From assembly GCF_023243045.1 (NCBI RefSeq), contig NZ_JALKFX010000030.1:1-64000 (forward strand): a stretch of DNA of 64,000 nt. The letters run 5' to 3'. The stretch comes from Frankia sp. AgB32 (lineage in GTDB: Bacteria > Actinomycetota > Actinomycetes > Frankiales > Frankiaceae). Positions 20,819 through 46,418 of this stretch are shown here, piece by piece. Position numbers and translations under genes: made by a program. Numbering within the stretch: position 1 is the first letter of the stretch; the number at the start of each line of letters is the position of its first letter. Under the pieces are notes generated by a model. It was given only the letters and a program-made list of their open reading frames with translations, was not told where the DNA came from and made no database searches.

Positions 20819-22666
20819 GTGACGCGTCGCAAGGATGGGGCGGCGCCCAGCGCCGAGACCCGCTGGCGTCGTCTGCCCGCCCCTGCCCTGATCGCCGTGC
20901 TCACGGCGCTCGTCGGCCTCATCGACATCGTCACCGCGATCAGCCACCGGCCGATCGGCTGGACGTGGATCGGCCGGCTCATCCCCGGCATGGTGACCGA
21001 CGCGGCGGCCGGCACGAGCGTCGGCGCGGGCCTGCTGCTCGTCGCCCTGGCCCACGGTCTGCGCCGGCGCAAGCGGCGGGCCTGGCGGGCCGCGGTGGCC
21101 CTGTCCGGCGCGGCGGTGCTGCTCGACCTCGCCCGCGGTATCGCCGTGGTGCCGGCGCTGGTCGACCTCGTCCCGTTCACGGTCCTGCTCGCGACCCGAC
21201 GGCACTTCCACGCCGCCGGCGACCCGCGGACCCGCTGGCGGGCGCTCGGCGCGCTGGCCGCGCTGAGCGCCGCGGACCTGCTCATCGGCCTGTCCCTGAT
21301 CCGCTTACGCCACGGCCACGGCGGCGCGGCCGACCGGGTCCTGCACATCCTCGCCGGGCTGATCGGCATCACCGGCCCCGTCCGGTTCGGCCCCGGCGAC
21401 GGTGATCTCGTCGGCTCGGTGCTGCTGGCGCTCGGTGTGGTCACCGTCGGCGTCACCGGCTACCTGGCGCTGCGCCCGGCCCGCCCGGTCGCCGCGCTCA
21501 CCGGCGACGACTGCACCCGGCTGCGCGCGCTGCTCACCCGCCACGGCGGCCGCGACTCGCTCAGCTACGCCGCCCTGCGCCAGGACAACAGCGTGCTCTG
21601 GTCCCCGACAGGCAAGGCGGCGATCACCTACCGGGTCGTCGGCGGGGTCGCGCTGGCCTGCGGCGACCCGATCGGCGACCCGGAGGCCTGGCCCGGCGCG
21701 ATCGGCCCGTTCCTCGACCTCGCCGCCGCCCACGCCTGGGTACCCGCCGCGGTCGGCTGCGGCCCCGACGGCGGACGCGCCTGGCAGCGCGCCGGCCTGC
21801 GCGTCCTCGAACTCGGCGATGAGGCGGTCGTGCACCCCGGCGAGTTCTGCCTCGACAGCCCGCTGACCCTCGGCGTGCGCCAGGCCGTCGACCGGGTCGA
21901 ACGCGCCGGCCACACCATGCGGATCGACCGCATCGCCGACCTCACCGACGACGAGCGCGCCACTCTCGCCGACCGGGCATCGGCCTGGCGCGCCCGCGGC
22001 GCCATCCGCGGCTGCGCCACGGCGCTCGGCCGCGTCGGCGCCACCCAGGACGCCGAGTGCGTGGTCGTCCGGGCCTTCCACGACAACCGGCTGTGCGGGC
22101 TGGTGACCTTCCTGCCCTGGGGACGCGACGGGCTGTCCCTCGACGTGGTGCGCATCGACCGCGCCGCCACGGCGGGTCTGACCGAGTTCATGCTCGTCGC
22201 ACTGCTCCAGGACGCGAAACGGCTCGGCATCACCAAAATCTCGCTGACCTTCGCGGCGTTCCGCGCGACCCTGGCCCGCGGCGCGCGCCTGGGCGCGCGC
22301 CCCGCCCTGCGGGTGTGGCGGCGCATGCTGCTCGCCGCGTCCTACTGGTTCCAGATCGAGTCGCTCTACCGCTTCAACGCCCGCTTCGACCCGGCCTGGC
22401 ATCCCCGATACGTCTGCTGGCCGGCCACCCGCGACCTGCCCCGCGTCCTCGTCGCCGCCGTCCGCGCCGAGATCCTCCTCCCCCACCCGACCTTCCCCCG
22501 CCTCGCCCTGCGCAGCCGCCGGACGTCCCTGGACGTGGACCGGTCCGACGGTGTCGGGAACGCCGACAGCGCCTGGAGCGACGACAACCTCGACAGCAGA
22601 GGCCTCCTCTCGCTGAGCGCGGCCGCGCGCACGGCCGCGCGCACGGCGCACGACGGCCGGTCCTAG
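20819..22666 (+). CDS. MprF-like phosphatidylglycerol lysyltransferase-domain membrane protein (DUF2156)
   Basis: A 615-residue protein with an N-terminal membrane part (about six helices to residue 220) and a C-terminal DUF2156/GNAT-like aminoacyl-transferase domain. Diagnostic segments are YRVVGGVALACGDPIGDP, FHDNRLCGLVTFLPWGRDGLSLDVVR, and YRFNARFDPAWHPRYVC near the end. MprF and LysX-type enzymes attach amino acids to membrane lipids, reducing negative charge and sensitivity to cationic peptides. It starts with GTG. Its 3' end overlaps the convergent kinase gene by four bases. The amino acid donor is unknown. Confidence 0.85.
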   Translation: MTRRKDGAAPSAETRWRRLPAPALIAVLTALVGLIDIVTAISHRPIGWTWIGRLIPGMVTDAAAGTSVGAGLLLVALAHGLRRRKRRAWRAAVALSGAAVLLDLARGIAVVPALVDLVPFTVLLATRRHFHAAGDPRTRWRALGALAALSAADLLIGLSLIRLRHGHGGAADRVLHILAGLIGITGPVRFGPGDGDLVGSVLLALGVVTVGVTGYLALRPARPVAALTGDDCTRLRALLTRHGGRDSLSYAALRQDNSVLWSPTGKAAITYRVVGGVALACGDPIGDPEAWPGAIGPFLDLAAAHAWVPAAVGCGPDGGRAWQRAGLRVLELGDEAVVHPGEFCLDSPLTLGVRQAVDRVERAGHTMRIDRIADLTDDERATLADRASAWRARGAIRGCATALGRVGATQDAECVVVRAFHDNRLCGLVTFLPWGRDGLSLDVVRIDRAATAGLTEFMLVALLQDAKRLGITKISLTFAAFRATLARGARLGARPALRVWRRMLLAASYWFQIESLYRFNARFDPAWHPRYVCWPATRDLPRVLVAAVRAEILLPHPTFPRLALRSRRTSLDVDRSDGVGNADSAWSDDNLDSRGLLSLSAAARTAARTAHDGRS

Positions 22667-24159
22667 AACATCGACCACACCCAGCCCGCGAAGGTCAGGA
22701 CGACGGGCAGCGTCAGAGCGACCCAGCCCTGTCGTCGGGGGAGATCGAACGCGACAGCACCGGTCACCGAGCCCACGGATCCAACAAGCAGCCCGAACAG
22801 CGGGAACGAGTGGACGATGAACAGCGCCGCGACGGCCAGCACCGCGGCCGCCAGGCGCAACCACCGGATCTCGTCCTCCGCCAGCCCCGACGACCTCGGC
22901 GCGGTGGCGGTGACCGGCGTGGGCGGCCCGGTCCGCCCCGACGCCGCCGGGGCTGTCCACCCCCGGGAGGGTGACGTCCTCCCGATCGGCGGCGGTGACG
23001 GTGGTGGCGGTGGTGGCGGCGGCGGCGCGGACGGGACGTTGGTAGTGGCATCCGTAGAGCCATGGGACGAACCGCGCCGCGGCACGAACGGATCGTGAAA
23101 GCCGTTGTCGCGCTGGCGGCACCACGGGCAACGTTGCCCCGCCAGCGCGCTGAAGACGTGACGCGACTCGTTCACACAGGTGGTCAGTGCCTCGAGGGTG
23201 CTGTCCAGCCGGGAGGCCCAGACGGCCGCCGGCGGGCGGTCGGCCGGGTCGCGCAGGCCCGGGCCGAACGCGCGGCGGGCGAGGTCGAGCAGATCGACAG
23301 GCAGCACGTCCACGGGCAGCGTCCGAGCCGGCACGATGACCAGGTCGTCGCCGGCGAACCTGCACAGGCCACGTTGGATCAGCTCCGCGGGCGTGTCCGC
23401 CTGCACCGTGTCGTCCGCCGGGACGCCGACGTACGGATGTGTCCCGCACATCAGCAACTCGCACAGGACGACCGCGAGGGAGAAGTCGTCCGTCGCAGCC
23501 GAATGGTCCGCCGGGGGATCTGCGGCGAGTTCCGGGGCGGCGTACTCACGGGTCAGCCCAACCGCGTGGACAATCCGTCCGTCCAGCCGAAACTGAAACG
23601 AGTCGCAATCGATCAGGCTGGGCAGACCACCGGGTCCGATCATGATGTTGCGGGGGGAGACATCTCCGATCACCAGCCCGGCCTCATGGACCATAGCGAC
23701 GAGCGTGGCGGTGAAATAGGCGGTGTGCACCAGGAATCGCCAGTCAGCGTCGGGCACGTGCCGAAGCAGGGCCGCGCGGCTGTAGAGCTCGTCGAGCCGT
23801 GCGTAGCCAGGTGGCAGCCTCGGCATCAGATAGCCGACCTCGTCCGACTGGTCGTCGACGACGATGGTCACCGGCCAGGTCAGAAAGACGTGGTCAGGCA
23901 GGTCAGCCAGTTCCAGCGCCGGGTCCAGCGGGCGACCCAGCCTGATCAGCTGACGGGTCCGGCGGACGTTGTCGCGACGCCTCCCACCTCGGAAGATCTT
24001 GACCGCGTCGCCCGGCCGTCCCTCGACCGCGAACACCGCGGCCTGCCCACCGGCACCCAGGCGATCGCCCAGAACGATCGCCTTCCTGCTGTCGACCCGG
24101 ACAAGCCGATCTCCGGGGCCGAACTGCCGTTGCACCCCGCCGCCATCACCTGTCGTCAT
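22663..24159 (-). CDS. Membrane-anchored serine/threonine protein kinase (TerY-P-type triad)
   Basis: A 498-residue protein. The kinase domain (about 20-340) has the Gly-rich loop LGAGGQAAVFAV (35-38), Lys54 in AVKIF, a catalytic loop written VIGDVSPRNIMI (Asp166, Asn171; GDV replaces HRD), the metal Asp184 in LIDCDSF, and YAAPELA. A CPWCRQ zinc-finger-like pair near 375, a run of nine prolines and two to three C-terminal membrane spans follow. It overlaps the PP2C gene by 14 bases; the VWA gene lies just upstream. Kinase, PP2C and VWA together match the TerY-P/YegIKL-like phosphorylation triad described for Ter-linked systems. Confidence 0.88.
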   Translation of the reverse strand: MTTGDGGGVQRQFGPGDRLVRVDSRKAIVLGDRLGAGGQAAVFAVEGRPGDAVKIFRGGRRRDNVRRTRQLIRLGRPLDPALELADLPDHVFLTWPVTIVVDDQSDEVGYLMPRLPPGYARLDELYSRAALLRHVPDADWRFLVHTAYFTATLVAMVHEAGLVIGDVSPRNIMIGPGGLPSLIDCDSFQFRLDGRIVHAVGLTREYAAPELAADPPADHSAATDDFSLAVVLCELLMCGTHPYVGVPADDTVQADTPAELIQRGLCRFAGDDLVIVPARTLPVDVLPVDLLDLARRAFGPGLRDPADRPPAAVWASRLDSTLEALTTCVNESRHVFSALAGQRCPWCRQRDNGFHDPFVPRRGSSHGSTDATTNVPSAPPPPPPPPPSPPPIGRTSPSRGWTAPAASGRTGPPTPVTATAPRSSGLAEDEIRWLRLAAAVLAVAALFIVHSFPLFGLLVGSVGSVTGAVAFDLPRRQGWVALTLPVVLTFAGWVWSMF

Positions 24160-24991
24160 CGGAGACCGCCACCACGATTGTCTTGTCGTCCTGGGTGTAC
24201 TGCCGGAACTGCGGGCTGTACAGAAAGTCGCCCAGCGCCGCGTCCGGCTGCTGGGGCTGCTCATCGAAGTACTCCATGACGGACCGGACGATGGACTCGG
24301 TCACCTGCGGATCACGGCCGCTGTTCCGCACGAACGGCGACTCGAGGCCATCGGTGGACAACAGCACACCGGTAACTCGCGGATCGTCCATGGCATAGTT
24401 CCGCAACGTTTCCAGGCAGCGATCGGACGTCACGAAAGCCGTCTCGTCCGCGGCGGCGCCGTAACGGGACTTCGGCTCCAGATCCACCAGCGCGAACGAC
24501 GCGTCCAGGCCGCGCTTGGCTCGCACCACGAGAAAGCAGTCGCCCACCGCCGCCCACGCGACGTAGTGCCGGTGCAGGATGGCGAGCGTCAGCGTCGTCG
24601 CGAAGTCCGCCGGATCGCCGTAGGCGCGGAAGAGCCCGAGAAGCGTCCGGTGCGCATCGCGAAACGCCTCGCCCGCGAGGTACCCCCAGTCAGCCGCACC
24701 CGCCGGACACGGTCCCGCGGCCAGCAGCCTTTCCACTGCCTGCGTGCCCACTCTGACCGCGTGATCGGCGCCCTCCCCGGACCGGCGCCGGCTGCCCGCA
24801 CCGTCCGCGACCGCCAGCACGTACGTCGGCGCGGAGCCCTCGGTCGCGGACACCTCGGCGAAATGGAACGCGTCCTGGCAGGGCATCCCGAGCCGTCGGT
24901 GCGAGTCCCCCTGCGCCTTCGCGCCACGCACCCGCCAGTGGACCTGGCCGACCGGCGCCCGGCACGACCGATGTCCCTCGTCGACGCTCAC
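24146..24991 (-). CDS. PP2C-family protein phosphatase of the kinase-VWA triad
   Basis: A 281-residue phosphatase. Motifs are GDSHRRLGMPCQDAF near the start, the metal Asp in VLAVADGAGSRRRSGEGAD, VGDCFLVV, and LLSTDGLESPF, with a final QDDKTIVVAVSDDDR. This is the PPM/PP2C_2 type that pairs with VWA proteins. GTG at 24991 overlaps the VWA stop in a GTGA arrangement, so I chose this start over a longer frame to 25258. It is expected to reverse the partner kinase's phosphorylation. Confidence 0.88.
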   Translation of the reverse strand: MSVDEGHRSCRAPVGQVHWRVRGAKAQGDSHRRLGMPCQDAFHFAEVSATEGSAPTYVLAVADGAGSRRRSGEGADHAVRVGTQAVERLLAAGPCPAGAADWGYLAGEAFRDAHRTLLGLFRAYGDPADFATTLTLAILHRHYVAWAAVGDCFLVVRAKRGLDASFALVDLEPKSRYGAAADETAFVTSDRCLETLRNYAMDDPRVTGVLLSTDGLESPFVRNSGRDPQVTESIVRSVMEYFDEQPQQPDAALGDFLYSPQFRQYTQDDKTIVVAVSDDDR

Positions 24992-25716
24992 GGCCGCCGT
25001 CGCCAGTTGGTGGTCTGGTCCCGGCCGCGAACCTGGTCGATGCTGTCGGTCATACGCGCCAGCAGCCCCTCGATGTTCACGTTCAGCTCGTAGTTCCGCG
25101 CCGGCGAGAGTGCCTCGAGCACCCGGCGCCGCTCGCCACTCGCGCCGGCACCCACCCCCACCGCGTGCAGTTGGAGATGACCGTTGCGCTCGGCGTCCGC
25201 AATGCGCTGGATCAACGGTTCCCACGGATCGGTGGGAGCGCCATCCGTCACCAGCCACAGAAGCGGGCGGTAAACCTGCTCGGCATGACGGCGCAGAAAC
25301 TTCTTGCGCTGGTCGATGAGATCGATCGAGCGGCGCAGCGCCTCACCCATCGGCGTGTTGCCGTCCGCCCGCAGCTGCGGCGGACGGAACTCCGAAAGCG
25401 GGACGAACGTACCGGGGCCGGCATCCCGGTAGGCAACGCGTTCCGGGCCCCGCCACGCGCAGACACCACCCTCACCGAAGGTGACCAATGCGACTTCCAG
25501 AGCCCGGGCATAGTAGGGGTTGCGGCGCAGCTCGGCGAACCAGGTACCTAGCTTGTCGTTCACCTCCTGAATGGATCGGCCACGCATGGATCCCGAGGTG
25601 TCGAGGCACAGCAGCAACACAAGCCGCCGCTCAACCGGATCCTCGTCATCGAGATCATCCGGGAAGGGAATTACACTCCTGGGCTGCACGGTGATTCGGT
25701 CGTGAATGTTCGTCAT
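24988..25716 (-). CDS. VWA-domain protein (TerY/YegL-like)
   Basis: A 242-residue von Willebrand A-domain protein. The MIDAS metal site is DTSGSM (Asp39, Ser41, Ser43), with the third ligand probably in NTPMGEALRRSIDLI and the Asp in LLWLVTDGAPTDPW. It is a cytosolic metal-dependent adhesion module that probably scaffolds the neighbouring kinase and phosphatase. ATG at 25716 is chosen; a GTG at 25758 is possible. The gene starts about 50 bases after the membrane protein gene. Confidence 0.88.
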   Translation of the reverse strand: MTNIHDRITVQPRSVIPFPDDLDDEDPVERRLVLLLCLDTSGSMRGRSIQEVNDKLGTWFAELRRNPYYARALEVALVTFGEGGVCAWRGPERVAYRDAGPGTFVPLSEFRPPQLRADGNTPMGEALRRSIDLIDQRKKFLRRHAEQVYRPLLWLVTDGAPTDPWEPLIQRIADAERNGHLQLHAVGVGAGASGERRRVLEALSPARNYELNVNIEGLLARMTDSIDQVRGRDQTTNWRRRP

Positions 25717-25763
25717 GCCCCCGCCCTGACGGTTCTGATTTTGTCCTGTGACGCGCACACGGG

Positions 25764-27119
25764 TTACTCCGCGGCCCCTTGCGCATCATCCGCAGCTGTC
25801 ACGACAGAAATGATGTGAAGCTCGCCGGCCCTGTTCCCGACACGGGCGGTGACGACCTCGCCGACCGCCGGCGGACGCACCGGGTCACCCAGCCAGAACG
25901 CCGGCCGGAGCACTCCGTCCGCTTCGAGGTATCCCCGCGACCCCGCGAGCGAGCTGTGCACCCGGTACTGCTGCCAGGCCGGTATCGGGTCGCCGCCAGC
26001 GGAACCGTCGGCGATAGTGCTGTCAGCGGGCATCGCGTCGAGAGCCTCCGTATCGACCGGCACGGTGTCGGGGGCCACGGCACCGACCGTTCCGGCGCCA
26101 GCAGGCATGCTGCCGATCTGCGTGCCGCCGGCGGAGGTGCTGCCGGTGAGCACGACCGCGGAGGTGACGTCGTCGCTGGCGCCGCCCTCGTCGTCCTCGT
26201 CGTCCTCGCGCACTCCCTGGCTGGGACCAAGCAGGCGACGGACATGGCCCCTGAACCGGACAGCCCGACCCTCGACGTCATCCGGTCGCAGCGAGATCTC
26301 CGTGTCGTCGTCCGACACGCGGCGGCGATAGAACAGGTACAGGAGCACAGGAACAACGACGATGACGAGCACGAGGCCCAGTGGCCACAGCAGGTCGGCC
26401 ACTCCGTTGCCGGCGGAGCCGTTCCTGTCGGTGTCCGTCCGACCCGCGCCATCAGCGGTCGGCGACGATCCGTCAGCCGGCCGACCCGATGCCGACGAGG
26501 GTGAGCTACCCGGGGTGGCTGGCGTGCGTGCGGGTGCCAGCGGCGGCAGTCCCATCCCGGCGAGTTCCTCGGTCGCGCCCGCGTCCACCTGGGGATCATC
26601 CTTGACGAGACGATCCAGCGACCTCCGGCAGACCTCGTCGCACCACTTCCTGGCGGCAGGTCTCCTGGCCACGTCCGACTTGATCTGCCTGATTGTGTCG
26701 GCTGCCTGCTGCTGGGTCGAAGGCGACGCGATCCGGTGGCTGGCGAGCGAGAACATCAGGGCCGACGCCTCACCGCCGCCGGCACCGTCATCCAGGACGA
26801 CGGTGAGGCGATCGCCGTTTCGGTCCCCGAGCCGCGAGAAATCGTTCCAGTCAAACTTCGACGCAAAGGAAATCGGCGCGGCGAAACGGACTGCAAACCT
26901 GCCCTGCGCGAGGCCGTCCAGGATGGCCTTCACCTGCGGTTCGCCAAGTTCAGGCGCGACGGCAGGCAGCTCGAGAGTCGGGATGGGAGCGCTCTCGGCC
27001 GGTGCCGCGAGCGCGGGCGCACCGAAAAACAGGAAGGCGAGGGCGCATAGCAGGGCTACATGAAGACCATGGCGCGACGCCGTTCGCCCAGGCCAGCCAA
27101 CCACAACATGGTGGGCCAA
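25764..27119 (-). CDS. Secreted-then-membrane-anchored protein of unknown function, first gene of the kinase operon
   Basis: About 451 residues. An N-terminal signal peptide (hydrophobic core LHVALLCALAFLFFGAPALA) leads to an extracytoplasmic domain of about 200 residues with two cysteines close together (WCDEVCRR). A Pro/Ser/Thr linker, one membrane span (LLWPLGLVLVIVVVPVLLYL) and an acidic cytosolic tail with a segment reminiscent of surface-exposed beta domains follow. No family is recognised. It could be the sensor or client of the kinase/PP2C/VWA triad downstream. The start is uncertain: TTG at 27119, or GTG at 27104. Confidence 0.75.
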   Translation of the reverse strand: MAHHVVVGWPGRTASRHGLHVALLCALAFLFFGAPALAAPAESAPIPTLELPAVAPELGEPQVKAILDGLAQGRFAVRFAAPISFASKFDWNDFSRLGDRNGDRLTVVLDDGAGGGEASALMFSLASHRIASPSTQQQAADTIRQIKSDVARRPAARKWCDEVCRRSLDRLVKDDPQVDAGATEELAGMGLPPLAPARTPATPGSSPSSASGRPADGSSPTADGAGRTDTDRNGSAGNGVADLLWPLGLVLVIVVVPVLLYLFYRRRVSDDDTEISLRPDDVEGRAVRFRGHVRRLLGPSQGVREDDEDDEGGASDDVTSAVVLTGSTSAGGTQIGSMPAGAGTVGAVAPDTVPVDTEALDAMPADSTIADGSAGGDPIPAWQQYRVHSSLAGSRGYLEADGVLRPAFWLGDPVRPPAVGEVVTARVGNRAGELHIISVVTAADDAQGAAE

Positions 27120-41854: not shown

Positions 41855-42133
41855 GTGTCCACGATCATCAACACCGATCCGAAAGACCTGGAGGAGTTCG
41901 CCAACCTCGTCGTGGGTTTCGGCGAGACGGTGACCGAACAACTCCGGGGCCTGCAGACGCGCTTCGATCAGCTGCACTGGCAGGACATCCAGAAGGAGAA
42001 GTTCCGGGACCTGGTCACGGAGCACGCGCAGCATCTTCACTCGCTGCTTGAGGCCGTCGTCCAGGTGGCGCCCGAACTGCGCGGCAAGAGCGCGAAGCTG
42101 CACGAGTACCTCGACGGCGGGCCCGGCCTCTAG
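41855..42133 (+). CDS. WXG100-like small helical protein
   Basis: A 92-residue protein of two predicted helices around LHWQDIQKEKFRD, a W-x-D variant of the WXG turn of ESX/type VII substrates. The helices are LEEFANLVVGFGETVTEQLRGL before and HLHSLLEAVVQVAPELR after. GTG start with GGAGG four bases upstream. It is followed by a coiled-coil protein and an FtsK/EccC-like ATPase; EsxA-like proteins are the substrates that such ATPases bind. It probably forms an antiparallel hairpin dimer. Confidence 0.75.
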   Translation: MSTIINTDPKDLEEFANLVVGFGETVTEQLRGLQTRFDQLHWQDIQKEKFRDLVTEHAQHLHSLLEAVVQVAPELRGKSAKLHEYLDGGPGL

Positions 42134-42172
42134 GCGGCCGACCGGTAGCGAGACGGCGTCGAAGGACGCGCC

Positions 42173-43162
42173 ATGGTGGTCGTCGTCGATCCCACCGTGC
42201 TCACGGCGCACCTGGGTCTGCTGGTGAGCACCGCGGCCCAGCTCGGTTCCGCGGCCCTGGAGATCACCGGCTGCCTCACCGAGACGGCCGGGCGGGCGGA
42301 CCGCAACCTGGCCAGCCACCGGGCGAGGCTGGACGCGGCGACCCGTGCCCGTCACCTCGCCGAGACGGAGGTCGAACGCGCGCAGCGTGAGATCGAGGCC
42401 GCCCAGCGCTCCGTCGCCGAGGCGCAGGCCGCGCTGGACCGAGCCCGCTCGCAGACCTGGCGGGATGCCGACGGAACCGAGCACCACCCTGACACGAGCG
42501 CCGAGCAGGCGGCGGTGTCGCGGGCGCGGGAGCGGGTCACCGTCGCCCGCCGCGCGCTCGCCCGGGTGCAGGCGGAACTGGAGAAGGCGATCGCCGCCGT
42601 GCTGGGCGCCGAGCGCGGCACCCGGGCCGCCGGCGCCCTGTGCGGCCGCGTCGGCGAACAGGTGGCGAACGCCGCCGCCGTCGCCGAGTGGATCAGCATG
42701 TTCCAGCAGCTCGCGACCGATGCGTCGTTCCTGCTCACCATCAAGACCGACCTGTTGGACCAGTATCTCGGCGACCTGCCCGCGCAGGCGTCCATCGCCC
42801 GGGCCGCCGCCCCCGCGGCGGCGCTCGCCGTCGCGCTGTCCGGCCTCGGCGGCGGCCTCGTCGGGCCGTTGGGTCTCGCGACGCAGCTCGGCCTCAGCGC
42901 CAGCGGGGTCACCGGAGTCGCCGGAGTCGCCGCGAGCCTGATCGACCTGAGCTCGGCGTTCGGCGGCGGCCTCGGCCTTCTCGCCGAGCACTGGGCCGAC
43001 GACGTCGGCCACCGCTACCGCAACGCGTTCGCCGAGCCGCTCGCCGAGCGGCTGCGCGGCATCGCCCACGCCGCCGATGACGTCAGCACGGCCGTCGGCG
43101 GGATCACTCGCGACCTCGAAGGTTCCGAACGAGACAGCACCCGGAGGACCGAGGATGGATGA
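42173..43162 (+). CDS. Coiled-coil protein of the WXG100-FtsK cassette
   Basis: A 329-residue protein of unknown family. A short N-terminal helical region leads to a long charged coiled coil (about residues 40-150, rich in Ala/Arg/Glu, for example EVERAQREIEAAQRSVAEAQ). A hydrophobic Gly/Ala segment (about 215-265) could be a membrane or oligomerisation helix (LAVALSGLGGGLVGPLGLA), with a further helix after it. It overlaps the FtsK gene by eight bases. In this context it may be a secretion adaptor or substrate. Confidence 0.7.
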   Translation: MVVVVDPTVLTAHLGLLVSTAAQLGSAALEITGCLTETAGRADRNLASHRARLDAATRARHLAETEVERAQREIEAAQRSVAEAQAALDRARSQTWRDADGTEHHPDTSAEQAAVSRARERVTVARRALARVQAELEKAIAAVLGAERGTRAAGALCGRVGEQVANAAAVAEWISMFQQLATDASFLLTIKTDLLDQYLGDLPAQASIARAAAPAAALAVALSGLGGGLVGPLGLATQLGLSASGVTGVAGVAASLIDLSSAFGGGLGLLAEHWADDVGHRYRNAFAEPLAERLRGIAHAADDVSTAVGGITRDLEGSERDSTRRTEDG

Positions 43163-46100
43163 GCCAGCCCCCCTCATCGACCGCCTGGACAGACTGCGCG
43201 GCCAGATCGACGCCGCCCAACGGGAGGCGACGCGGGCCACCGAGACGGCGGACGCGCGCCTCACCGCGCAGCGCACGAAGATCAGTGCGGCCCGTTCCGC
43301 CGAGCAGCGGGACAACGCCCGCTGGCGCGACGCGAACGTCCGCCCGCTGGTCGCCCAGGCGCACGAGGCCCTCGGCTCGCGCGTTCACCTGTGGGAACGG
43401 GCCGAACAGCAGCGGCACGCGCCGCGACGACCGCCCGCGTCGATGGACACCCTCGACCTGCCCGACACCCTCGACCTGTTGGCGGAGGCCGCGAACAAGC
43501 TGGGCTCGATCTGGCGCAGCAGGCGCTACTGGGTCGCCATGGCGGTGGCCGCCGTCCGGCGCGCCGACCAGCTCATCGCCGACAGCGACGCGCAGGCCGA
43601 ACGGCAGGCGCGGCTCGCCGGCCAGCAGGCGGTCGACGATCACCATCAGGCCATCACCGCCGCACGGCGGCGCTGGCAGGCCCAGTTCGCCCGGCTGCGC
43701 GCGGAGCTCGCGGCCACCGTCGCCGAGCTGGACGAGATCGACCGGCCCGCGGACACGGACTGGAGTGACTGGCGGACACCCGCGCGGCCACTCGGTGCCG
43801 TGCGCCTGGGCGACCACACCCGGCAGGGCTTCGCCGACGAGCCGATCGCGGTGCCGGCACTGTTCCGCTTCCCAGCGGCGACAAACCTGGTCATCCGGAC
43901 CGTCCGGGACAACGCGGAGCACACCGACGCGATCCTCGGCGTGATCTGCCGGCTGCTCGCCGCGGTGCCGCCCGGGCAGCTGCGGCTGACCGTCATCGAC
44001 CCGCGTTCGCTCGGCGGCAGCGTCCGCACCCTGGCCGGGCTCAACTCCGACGACGTGAAGCTGCTGGACAAGCCGCTCACCGAATCGATCGACATCGAGC
44101 GCAGGCTCGCCGCCCTGGTCGGACGGATCATGCGCGTGCACGGCGAGATGCTCGGCCCCAACGGGCTGGACACCCTGACCGAGTACAACGATCGGGTCGC
44201 CGCCCGCCCGGAGCCCTACCACCTGGTGGTGCTGTTCGACTTCCCCAGCGGCTTCACCACCGCGGACAGCCGCATCCGCGTCGATCAGGTGATGTCCAAC
44301 GGCCCGGCCTGCGGCGTCTACACCGTGCTCGCCATCAACGACGAGGACCCGGACCATCAGCACCACCTGGAGCTCACCGCCGACGGCCGGGTGCTGCCCG
44401 GGCCCGCCGCGTTCGGCCCGGCGAGCGCCGGAGCGTGGGGCCTGGAACTCGCCCGCCCCCGGGAAGGCCGGTGGGAGCGGTCGGCGGCGCTGCGCACCGT
44501 CGTGGAGCGGGTTGCCGACGCCGCCCGCGACGCGGGGTTGGTCGTCGTCTCGGTGGAACGGATGTTCGCGCTGCTGCCGGCGACGGCGCGGCCCGAGCAC
44601 GGCGGCGTCCCGGGCGCCACCACGGCGATCAGCCCGCAGGAGCCGGCCACCTGGTGGCAGGGCGACGCCGGCGGCCTGCTCGTCGCGCCGCTGGGCCTCT
44701 ACGGCCTCGACGACGTGCAGGCACTACGGCTCGGCGAGGACACCTGGCAGCATGCCCTGATCGCCGGTACGACCGGGTCCGGCAAGTCGACGCTGCTGCA
44801 CACGCTCATCATCTCCGCCGCGACCGTCTACTCCCCCGACGAGCTGGAGCTCTACCTGATCGATCTCAAGGGCGGCGTCGAGTTCTCCGAGTACGCGGTG
44901 CGCCGCCTCCCGCACGCCCGGGTGGTGTCCATGCACAGCGAGCGCGAGTTCGGCCTGGAGACCATGCAGGGCCTGCTCGCCGAGTCCCGCCGCCGCGAGC
45001 TGCTGTTCGCCCAGCACGGGGTGCAGGACCTCGCCGACTACCGCCGGGCGTGGGATGCCGCGCCGGCCGACGATCCGCTGCGGGCCGAGCCGCGCTTCGC
45101 CCGCGCACTACTGATCATCGACGAGTACCACGTGCTGTTCGAGGGCGACGACCACATCGCCCGGGCGGCGCGGGCCTGCCTGAGCTCCCTGGTTCGCCAG
45201 GGCCGGGCGTTCGGCATCGGCACGCTGATGGCCTCGCAGACCCCGAGCAGCCCCGTCCAGCTCGGTGAGGGCGTCCCGAGCCAGATGGCGGTGCGGATCG
45301 CGCTGCGCTGCCCGGAGAACATCAGCCGGCGCATCCTGGCCGAGAACAATGTCGCCGCGAGCCTGCTCACCGCCCGCGGCGAGGCGATCTACAACCCGGA
45401 GTACGGCCAGGTCGGCCGGGACACGACGTTCCAGGTCGCCTTCCAGGACCGGCTGGCGCGGGCGGACGCGCTGGATCGGATGAGCCGGCTCGCGCACGCC
45501 CGGGGATTCACCCGCGAGCCCATGGTGTACGACGGCCACCGGCCGGGCGATCTCACCCGCGACGGGGTCTTCGAGGCCCACGCGGGCGCGGAGTACCGCC
45601 GGGCCGGGCGCGGGCCGACCGATCCGGTCCGGGTCTGGCTGGGCGAGCCGATGGGCCTGACGGCTCCCGTGTCGGTGGCGTTCTCCGCGAGCCCCCGCCG
45701 AAGCCTGCTGGCGATCGGCGACGACGAGGCGAACGTGGGCGTGCTCGTCGCGGTCGTCACCGCCCTCGCCGCCGCCGGCCTCGGGCGCACAGCCGCGACC
45801 GCCGACGCCGTCACGGTGATCGACTTCACCGGCGCGGCCTCCCATTCCCGCTATCCGGGTGTGCAGGCCGAACTGGAGGTACTCCTGCCCGGTCTGCGCC
45901 GCATCGCGGTGCGCGACGCCGAGGAGCATCTGGTCGCGCTCGCCGACGAGGTGCGCCGGCGCCTGGCGGACGACGCCTTCCCGGCCGGCCGCGCGCAGGA
46001 CGCCCGGTTCGTCCTGCTCAACGGTCTGCGTCCGGCCCAGGGTCTGGCGGACTCGCCGCGGTTCCGCCCGGCCGGACTCGGGATGGCGCTCGACGTGCTG

Positions 46101-46418
46101 CTGTCGCAGGGTTCGGAGGTCGGTGTCTTCGTCGTCGCGACGATGGATCCGAGCGCGGAGCGGCGCATCCACAGCGAATATCTCAACGAGTTCGGCCCGG
46201 TGCTCACCCGCTGGCAGCCGCACACCTACGACCATCGCATCCAGAGCCTGGTCGGGCGGCGGACCGACAGCCTGCGCGACGGTCAGGCGCTGCTGATCGA
46301 CGAGGACACCGAGGCGCGCCTGCGGCCGTACCAGATTCCACGGCCCGGCTGGCTGACGGAACTCGCCGCGCGACTGCCCGCCGGGGACGCGCCGTCCACC
46401 GAGCTGCCCACGGTCTGA
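43155..46418 (+). CDS. FtsK/SpoIIIE (EccC-like) ATPase with three tandem modules
   Basis: About 1087 residues with no clear membrane span. Residues 1-200 form a coiled coil. Three FtsK-like modules follow. The first (about 225-480) has a degenerate P-loop and VIDPRSLGGSVRTLAGL. The second (about 510-770) is complete: Walker A IAGTTGSGKST near 535, LIDLKGGVEF, Walker B LLIIDEYHVLF near 652, and LMASQTPSSPVQLGEGVPSQ. The third (about 820-1050) lacks Walker A (AIGDDEANVG). Only the middle module looks catalytic, unlike classical EccC, where the first is. GGAGGACCGAGG precedes the ATG. It likely recruits the WXG100-like protein. Confidence 0.88.
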   Translation: MDEPAPLIDRLDRLRGQIDAAQREATRATETADARLTAQRTKISAARSAEQRDNARWRDANVRPLVAQAHEALGSRVHLWERAEQQRHAPRRPPASMDTLDLPDTLDLLAEAANKLGSIWRSRRYWVAMAVAAVRRADQLIADSDAQAERQARLAGQQAVDDHHQAITAARRRWQAQFARLRAELAATVAELDEIDRPADTDWSDWRTPARPLGAVRLGDHTRQGFADEPIAVPALFRFPAATNLVIRTVRDNAEHTDAILGVICRLLAAVPPGQLRLTVIDPRSLGGSVRTLAGLNSDDVKLLDKPLTESIDIERRLAALVGRIMRVHGEMLGPNGLDTLTEYNDRVAARPEPYHLVVLFDFPSGFTTADSRIRVDQVMSNGPACGVYTVLAINDEDPDHQHHLELTADGRVLPGPAAFGPASAGAWGLELARPREGRWERSAALRTVVERVADAARDAGLVVVSVERMFALLPATARPEHGGVPGATTAISPQEPATWWQGDAGGLLVAPLGLYGLDDVQALRLGEDTWQHALIAGTTGSGKSTLLHTLIISAATVYSPDELELYLIDLKGGVEFSEYAVRRLPHARVVSMHSEREFGLETMQGLLAESRRRELLFAQHGVQDLADYRRAWDAAPADDPLRAEPRFARALLIIDEYHVLFEGDDHIARAARACLSSLVRQGRAFGIGTLMASQTPSSPVQLGEGVPSQMAVRIALRCPENISRRILAENNVAASLLTARGEAIYNPEYGQVGRDTTFQVAFQDRLARADALDRMSRLAHARGFTREPMVYDGHRPGDLTRDGVFEAHAGAEYRRAGRGPTDPVRVWLGEPMGLTAPVSVAFSASPRRSLLAIGDDEANVGVLVAVVTALAAAGLGRTAATADAVTVIDFTGAASHSRYPGVQAELEVLLPGLRRIAVRDAEEHLVALADEVRRRLADDAFPAGRAQDARFVLLNGLRPAQGLADSPRFRPAGLGMALDVLLSQGSEVGVFVVATMDPSAERRIHSEYLNEFGPVLTRWQPHTYDHRIQSLVGRRTDSLRDGQALLIDEDTEARLRPYQIPRPGWLTELAARLPAGDAPSTELPTV

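Follow-up and report, generated by a model that had tools for sequence, protein, structure and literature searches.

We report the analysis of a cassette of three co-directional genes found at positions 41855-46418 (+ strand) of a 64,000-nucleotide stretch of DNA from Frankia sp. AgB32, hereafter the window (NZ_JALKFX010000030.1, belonging to contig C198 in a draft assembly of 6.7 Mb; GC about 73%). The predicted products are a small hairpin protein with a W-x-D motif (gene 1), a coiled-coil protein carrying a second W-x-D hairpin (gene 2) and an ATPase of EccC fold (gene 3); these parts, their order and their kinship were shown by profile comparison and structure prediction. We propose, with a probability of about 0.55, that they form a stand-alone type VII-derived protein-motor cassette, of the same kind as the HP0062/HP0066 cluster of Helicobacter pylori and the module of Type III-A CoCoNuT loci, reduced to three genes by gene fusion. 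By analogy with these relatives, the cassette may best be read as an ATP-driven, Esx-like protein motor used in microbial conflict.

The three genes and their products

The genes of the cassette are the following:

41855-42133, + strand: gene 1, GTG start, 92 amino acids (aa); HP0062-type W-x-D helical hairpin protein
42173-43162, + strand: gene 2, 329 aa; coiled-coil protein with a C-terminal WXG-like hairpin
43155-46418, + strand: gene 3, 1087 aa; EccC-type ATPase without transmembrane (TM) segments; 8 bp overlap with gene 2

As stated in the original prediction, made from the sequence of the window, the genes are tightly packed, with intergenic gaps of 39 bp and -8 bp. Orthologues of the cassette are 28-66% identical, and order and spacing are kept in four genomes (gaps of 39, 63, 39 and 40 bp between genes 1 and 2, and of -8, -8, 100 and 95 bp between genes 2 and 3), indicating that these are real genes and not chance open reading frames. 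A promoter and terminator scan did not detect anything.

Gene 1 had been described as a WXG100-like hairpin protein of a W-x-D variant. The variant motif is present (W42-x-D44), together with a C-terminal Y-L at residues 85-86, but the match to the Pfam WXG100 model (20.9 bits) remained under the 27.3-bit cut-off and the relation to HP0062 proved far stronger. A profile of six Frankiaceae orthologues, compared with the PDB, retrieved HP0062 with E=2.9e-12 (3fx7) and 9.3e-12 (2gts), the best ESX protein being EsxB with E=6e-4. The protein thus corresponds to the small HP0062-type W-x-D/WXG hairpin of the WXG100/EssC-like FtsK module. Among 18 gene 1-type proteins from Actinomycetota, Campylobacterota, Pseudomonadota, Planctomycetota and Bacillota, 17 contain W-x-D, and a Y-[LG] pair lies inside the last eight residues of 17 as well. 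The conserved Y-L tail of gene 1 may be a candidate signal for docking on the ATPase. No YxxxD/E secretion motif was found in gene 1.

The structure of the gene 2 product was predicted by AlphaFold2 with five orthologues (mean predicted local distance difference test score, pLDDT, of 82), giving three parts:

42191-42772, + strand: antiparallel coiled-coil hairpin, residues 7-92 and 109-200 (AlphaFold2, pLDDT mostly >90)
42779-42910, + strand: Gly/Ala-rich linker, residues 203-246 (predicted disordered, pLDDT <50)
42917-43156, + strand: C-terminal helical hairpin, residues 249-273 and 277-328, with W274-x-D276 at the bend (AlphaFold2)

The coiled coil announced by the original prediction was recovered, whereas its hydrophobic Gly/Ala segment turned out to be of borderline hydropathy (best 19-mer mean, 1.69) and was modelled as disordered. 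A membrane anchor at this position was considered and found unsupported, as the model contains no membrane helix there. Residues W274, D276, G279, Y282 and P289 are invariant across the five orthologues. Domain and profile searches with gene 2 gave no family match of weight, and a fold search with the coiled-coil model returned generic coiled coils only, none at E<=0.001.

Relatives of the cassette contain a separate protein of 68-78 aa, mostly encoded between the genes for the coiled-coil protein and the ATPase. Alignment of the gene 2 C-terminus with this small protein by hhalign gave a score of 27.1 (E 5.9e-5), to be compared with a maximum of 17.6 among 200 column shuffles, and the N-terminal part of gene 2 had no profile similarity to it. 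The C-terminus also aligned with gene 1, more weakly (E 1e-3); direct homology between these two was set aside because the small protein of the relatives matches better. Given this resemblance, and since planctomycete relatives have the order W-x-D protein, coiled-coil protein, small protein, ATPase (WXD-CC-small-ATPase), the simplest reading of the profiles and models is that the Frankia lineage probably fused the second and third genes of a four-gene order. The second WXG-like small protein of the module would then be found in Frankia as the C-terminal domain of gene 2, and no separate gene for it is present.

The following features were assigned to gene 3:

43167-43742, + strand: N-terminal coiled-coil hairpin, residues 5-85 and 102-196 (model)
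43782-44339, + strand: ATPase domain 1, residues ~210-395; Walker motifs degenerate
44679-45443, + strand: ATPase domain 2 (D2), residues ~509-763; sole domain with Walker A and B intact
44766-44789, + strand: Walker A of D2, GTTGSGKS
45108-45125, + strand: Walker B of D2, LLIIDE
45627-46334, + strand: ATPase domain 3, residues ~825-1060; Walker motifs degenerate

Gene 3 matches PF01580 (FtsK_SpoIIIE) with E=1.9e-29. The profile models for EccCa (2.5e-26), EssC (1.2e-24) and EccCb (2e-22) each outscored that for FtsK, and the best fold match of the predicted structure in the PDB was the cytoplasmic domain of EccC (4nh0, E=1.7e-25), while the FtsK motor 2ius matched D2 alone (E=5e-15). The three FtsK/EccC-like modules proposed for this protein are therefore present as folds, with intact Walker motifs in the central one only; no TM segment was found in gene 3, again as proposed. 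The protein thus has the composition of the EssC-homologous ATPases with an N-terminal coiled coil and three domains of which the central alone is intact. The compared relatives likewise have degenerate domains 1 and 3, and in one of them (G189) domain 2 is degenerate as well. Planctomycete and Chloroflexi relatives contain two TM helices inside the N-terminal coiled coil, so that soluble and apparently membrane-anchored ATPases occur within one kind.

Distribution in the Frankiaceae and genomic setting

The cassette was searched for in 35 genomes of the family and in 395 genomes sampled across the class. An ATPase orthologue was present in six of the 35 (this genome, G004, G008, G021, G022 and G030), and G003 retains a remnant of 215 aa. 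The genomes with the coiled-coil protein were the same, and matches to the W-x-D protein family among the 395 were confined to exactly these seven. G007, G020 and G031 gave weak matches to the coiled-coil protein (E about 1e-4 to 1e-3), which were regarded as chance. The three genes therefore travel together, in six Frankiaceae genomes and one remnant, and the absence of joint conservation, named beforehand as an observation that would speak against a common system, is not what was found. At the level of the phylum, the coiled-coil alignment (A2) gave no convincing match beyond the family among the five candidates scored per genome, which makes this a weak negative; the ATPase search, with two candidates scored per genome, is limited in the same way.

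Two copies are decaying: in G022 gene 2 is split and the ATPase interrupted, and in G003 a fused remnant is left. The copies of the window, G004, G021 and G030 are open over their full length, with coding-like codon usage and ATPase identities of 52-66%, suggesting that they were kept intact over long divergence. The flanks of the cassette vary between genomes. The esterase (82% identical) and S58 peptidase (73%) genes next to the window copy also adjoin the cassette of G008, which lies beyond the S58 gene on the opposite side, and its genes 1 and 2 are just 37-43% identical to those of the window. The closest cassette, that of G004 (51-62% identical), occupies a different genomic location. 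In congeners lacking the cassette, antiporter, cold-shock and GAF genes lie between esterase and S58 peptidase, and no clean empty site was found. Taken together, differing flanks, placement in G008 and G004 and the interval in congeners fit a locus that is accessory, mobile or recombining. In G003 a gene for a 962-aa protein with a TIR-like start (L141, 15958-18846) lies beside the same esterase gene and the cassette remnant elsewhere, which suggests that the esterase flank is a variable site.

In the window, the neighbours of the cassette are the esterase, the S58 peptidase, and PQQ-like and metabolic genes; none of the adjoining genes is a nuclease, immunity or Ter partner. A TerY-P-like triad (kinase PF00069 4e-7, PP2C 1e-31, vWA 3e-8) together with a 389-aa orphan occupies 22663-26933 on the - strand, the triad-like genes themselves (22663-25620) lying 15 kb from the cassette. 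The vWA gene of the triad was found in one other genome of the genus only, itself devoid of the cassette. A functional tie between triad and cassette was rejected, because the other genomes of the genus that carry the cassette lack the vWA gene; the module is thus not linked to a vWA/PP2C/kinase triad as in TerY-P associated systems.

No match to EccB, EccD or mycosin was detected within the window, as the original prediction had noted for the surroundings of the cassette; all such matches are on other contigs, and EccE was not searched for. An ESX locus with EccD, EccB, two WXG100 genes and an ATPase of EccC size is located on contig C236, and further EccC-type ATPases of the genome are on C77, C264 and C230. 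The cassette is consequently an addition to ordinary type VII machinery and not a substitute for it. In the ATPase tree, five Frankiaceae cassettes form one clade (100/100), apart from the EccCs of the same genome (100/100), from the CoCoNuT/Helicobacter ATPases (100/99) and from an otsA-linked paralogue (100/100), the branching order among these groups being without support. A full ESX locus with the same type of ATPase had been named as an argument against the proposal; since the EccC-type ATPases of this genome are of the membrane type and belong to a separate clade, the locus on C236 is not of that sort.

The otsA-linked paralogue, a TM-less FtsK/EccC-like ATPase of 1036 aa, belongs to a trio on contig C274 of the same genome (L034, 8022-13026), whose other members are a TM-bearing protein and a conserved helical protein of 87 aa. 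The trio adjoins otsA and a SixA-type phosphatase gene, is near-universal in the family and possibly has a core actinobacterial function. It resembles the cassette in having a homologous ATPase gene (38% identity in the D2 region) with two small-partner genes after it, and differs from it in lacking an N-terminal coiled coil of the cassette kind, in its TM-bearing partner, in its near-universal presence and in its separate clade.

Relatives, proposed working and alternatives

The kind recurs in at least four phyla besides Actinomycetota. A contig scan with very generic peptide patterns gave at least seven relatives, none of them actinobacterial among the matches listed, so that this breadth is a lower bound. 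The order WXD-CC-small-ATPase was found in Gemmata (L100), a Planctomycetaceae bacterium (L101), Pseudomonas (L103, L104), Hominisplanchenecus (L106) and on a Caballeronia plasmid (L088). In the Caballeronia, Pseudomonas, Nitrosomonas (L105) and Hominisplanchenecus loci it takes the form vWA-WXD-CC-(extra)-small-ATPase and is followed by CARF and/or vWA-PP2C-kinase genes, the whole corresponding to the Type III-A CoCoNuT extension (PMC11090510). Conflict-linked neighbours (CoCoNuT, CARF or TerY-P) thus occur in Caballeronia, Pseudomonas, Nitrosomonas and Bacillota, and the module stands alone in Gemmata and the Planctomycetaceae bacterium. The Helicobacter plasmid pNHP190012_1 (L087, 5146-9548) encodes an HP0062-type protein, a coiled-coil nuclease, SUKH, a small protein and the ATPase, and also has an Hsp70-like gene; it carries a toxin-immunity version of the module. 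Its coiled-coil protein ends in a WHH/colicin-DNase domain (PF14414 1.1e-11, PF12639 9.8e-9), and the SUKH immunity gene (PF09346 1.6e-6) comes after it.

Other variants were noted. On Rhodococcus plasmids the ATPase adjoins Hsp70-TPR-GrpE (L090) or WXD and TerD (L091). Loci L095 (3026-9566) and L090 (4436-10424) combine Hsp70, DnaJ/TPR, GrpE, an FtsK-like ATPase and small hairpin proteins, and this chaperone-linked variant shares a supported clade with the otsA-linked paralogue. In other Actinomycetota, loci L096, L097 and L098 combine a JAB-like protein with an ATPase of this superfamily and with a small WXG-like protein, and may be a ubiquitin-like-linked variant.

EsxA is known to pair with EsxB, and ATPases of the FtsK family form hexamers. 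On this model, gene 1 would act as the adaptor, either forming a dimer as HP0062 does or pairing with the C-terminal hairpin of gene 2 in the EsxA/EsxB fashion, and its conserved Y-L tail would dock on the ATPase. Gene 3 would form a hexamer with one live ring, domain 2 being the motor between two degenerate domains, and would spend ATP to move or unfold the complex of genes 1 and 2. As an outcome, the coiled-coil protein may be delivered as an effector or effector carrier against phages or rival bacteria. This last step is suggested by the relatives that place nuclease domains on the corresponding coiled-coil protein, and the role in conflict by these nuclease-loaded relatives together with the patchy and decaying distribution. 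The proposal that the cassette is a minimal type VII-like or repurposed ATPase system, perhaps for conflict, fits this evidence and is partly supported by it.

Several observations weigh against a type VII-derived motor for conflict. FtsK_SpoIIIE is the only curated family whose cut-off was passed by the cassette proteins, and the gene 3 model has a mean pLDDT of 75, of moderate confidence. No nuclease or toxin domain was detected in Frankia gene 2 and no immunity gene adjoins it, so that the conflict role rests on the relatives. The TerY-P-like genes of the window are not co-inherited with the cassette. Finally, a TM-less ATPase without an encoded membrane partner speaks against export.

Export and intracellular action appeared about equally supported, the former favoured by the EccC ancestry, the TM-bearing cousins and the Helicobacter toxin-immunity pair, the latter by the absence of TM segments and membrane partners and by the CoCoNuT setting. 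Each leads to a distinct alternative. According to the first, possible though somewhat doubtful, the cassette is a minimal protein-export system in which the ATPase docks on a channel encoded elsewhere, e.g. by the ESX locus of the genome, and secretes the gene 1-gene 2 pair. The WXG-like partners, the apparently membrane-anchored members and the EccB and EccD genes on C236 agree with it. However, none of the three proteins has a TM segment except for the borderline Gly/Ala stretch modelled as disordered, gene 1 has no YxxxD/E motif, the cassette ATPases branch apart from the EccCs of the genome (100/100), and T7SSa-j ATPases are membrane-bound with four NTPase domains (PMC11217815).

The second alternative, which we hold to be a tentative option of similar standing, is an intracellular phage-defence module in which infection would trigger the ATPase to remodel or release the coiled-coil protein within the cell, without export. 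The TM-less ATPase, the patchy distribution with decayed copies and the fact that CoCoNuT loci contain the counterpart module next to CARF, vWA, PP2C and kinase genes (PMC11090510) agree with it, whereas the Frankia copy has metabolic neighbours and no adjacent sensor, nuclease or regulator, the planctomycete stand-alone relatives look membrane-anchored, and PADLOC models match through the generic FtsK/HerA core only. In a related and equally tentative view, two W-x-D hairpins, one free and one in the coiled-coil carrier, would load a hexameric EccC-type ATPase without any membrane pore, giving a self-sufficient soluble motor, and the Frankiaceae would have converted type VII machinery into an intracellular engine for remodelling or defence.

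A DNA-moving FtsK-like translocase, with the small proteins regulating chromosome or plasmid handling, is very improbable: FtsK motor domains do match D2 (2ius, PF01580), but EccC matches the whole length better than FtsK matches D2 alone, the EccCa, EssC and EccCb models all score above FtsK, and a WXG-like partner is consistently encoded. That the cassette is a decaying selfish or relict element without present function, as the broken G022 copy and the G003 remnant might suggest, is hardly credible in view of the full-length copies kept in the window, G004, G021 and G030.

Comparison with described systems

The protein-motor cassette was finally compared with systems described in the literature. 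HP0062 forms a dimer of helical hairpins that have WRD at the bend, and its gene clusters with an FtsK/SpoIIIE gene (PMC3397514), and the H. pylori HP0062/HP0066 "WXG100 secretion system" cluster (NCGC-5) has been considered a minimal type VII set (PMC4978471, PMC3397514); these clusters also hold a DnaK homologue and an HNH/ENDO VII nuclease (PMC4978471). The Frankia cassette shares with them the W-x-D hairpin protein (E=2.9e-12) and the FtsK/SpoIIIE ATPase, HP0066 being compared by description only, and contains neither DnaK homologue nor nuclease.

In CoCoNuT-associated EssC homologues, an N-terminal coiled coil replaces the FHA/TM region and the central one of three ATPase domains is alone active; the same loci encode a second WXG100-like protein without the motif (PMC11090510), which we take to be the small protein of 68-78 aa. 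The Frankia cassette resembles the CoCoNuT III-A module in its TM-less ATPase with coiled coil and three domains, the middle one active, in its WXG100, coiled-coil and second small proteins and in their order. It differs in that no CoCoNuT core (CnuB/C/H/E), CARF, vWA, PP2C or kinase gene adjoins it, in the fusion of the small protein and in having no DMP12-like gene. The nuclease domain carried by the coiled-coil protein of CoCoNuT and Helicobacter forms is also missing in Frankia; since planctomycete stand-alone forms have no nuclease either, we did not take it as defining the stand-alone form. The Planctomycetota cassettes (L100, L101) share the order, the absence of CoCoNuT genes and a coiled-coil protein without nuclease, but consist of four separate genes and have an ATPase with a two-TM hairpin inside the coiled coil.

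T7SSa-T7SSj (ESX/Ess) systems have membrane-bound ATPases with four NTPase domains, and further components (PMC11217815). An EccC/EssC-type ATPase and a WXG100-family partner are common to them and to the cassette, which has none of these other properties. In particular it is not a T7SSa (ESX) system, which would comprise a membrane-bound EccC with two TM segments together with EccB, EccD, EccE and MycP: the cassette ATPase has no TM segment, and EccB, EccD and mycosin matches are on other contigs.

The original prediction had recognized no described system with this content. The stand-alone WXG100/FtsK module is, however, already known as a prediction (PMC4978471; Anantharaman 2012 via PMC11090510), so that the kind, represented by HP0062/HP0066 and Type III-A CoCoNuT, is not new. 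No description of the Frankiaceae form, of the fusion or of the TM-bearing planctomycete stand-alone form was found in a search outside of which most subscription literature lay. So far the module has been an add-on to defence loci or a set of orphan H. pylori genes. What appears to be new in Frankia is the small hairpin fused to the coiled-coil protein, the absence of a nuclease, immunity or Ter neighbour and an ATPase without the TM hairpin retained by planctomycete relatives. The occurrence of TM-bearing and TM-less ATPases in one gene order bears on how type VII machinery shifted between secretion and conflict, and the Frankia form, with three genes and no nuclease or immunity partner, makes the core machine testable alone.

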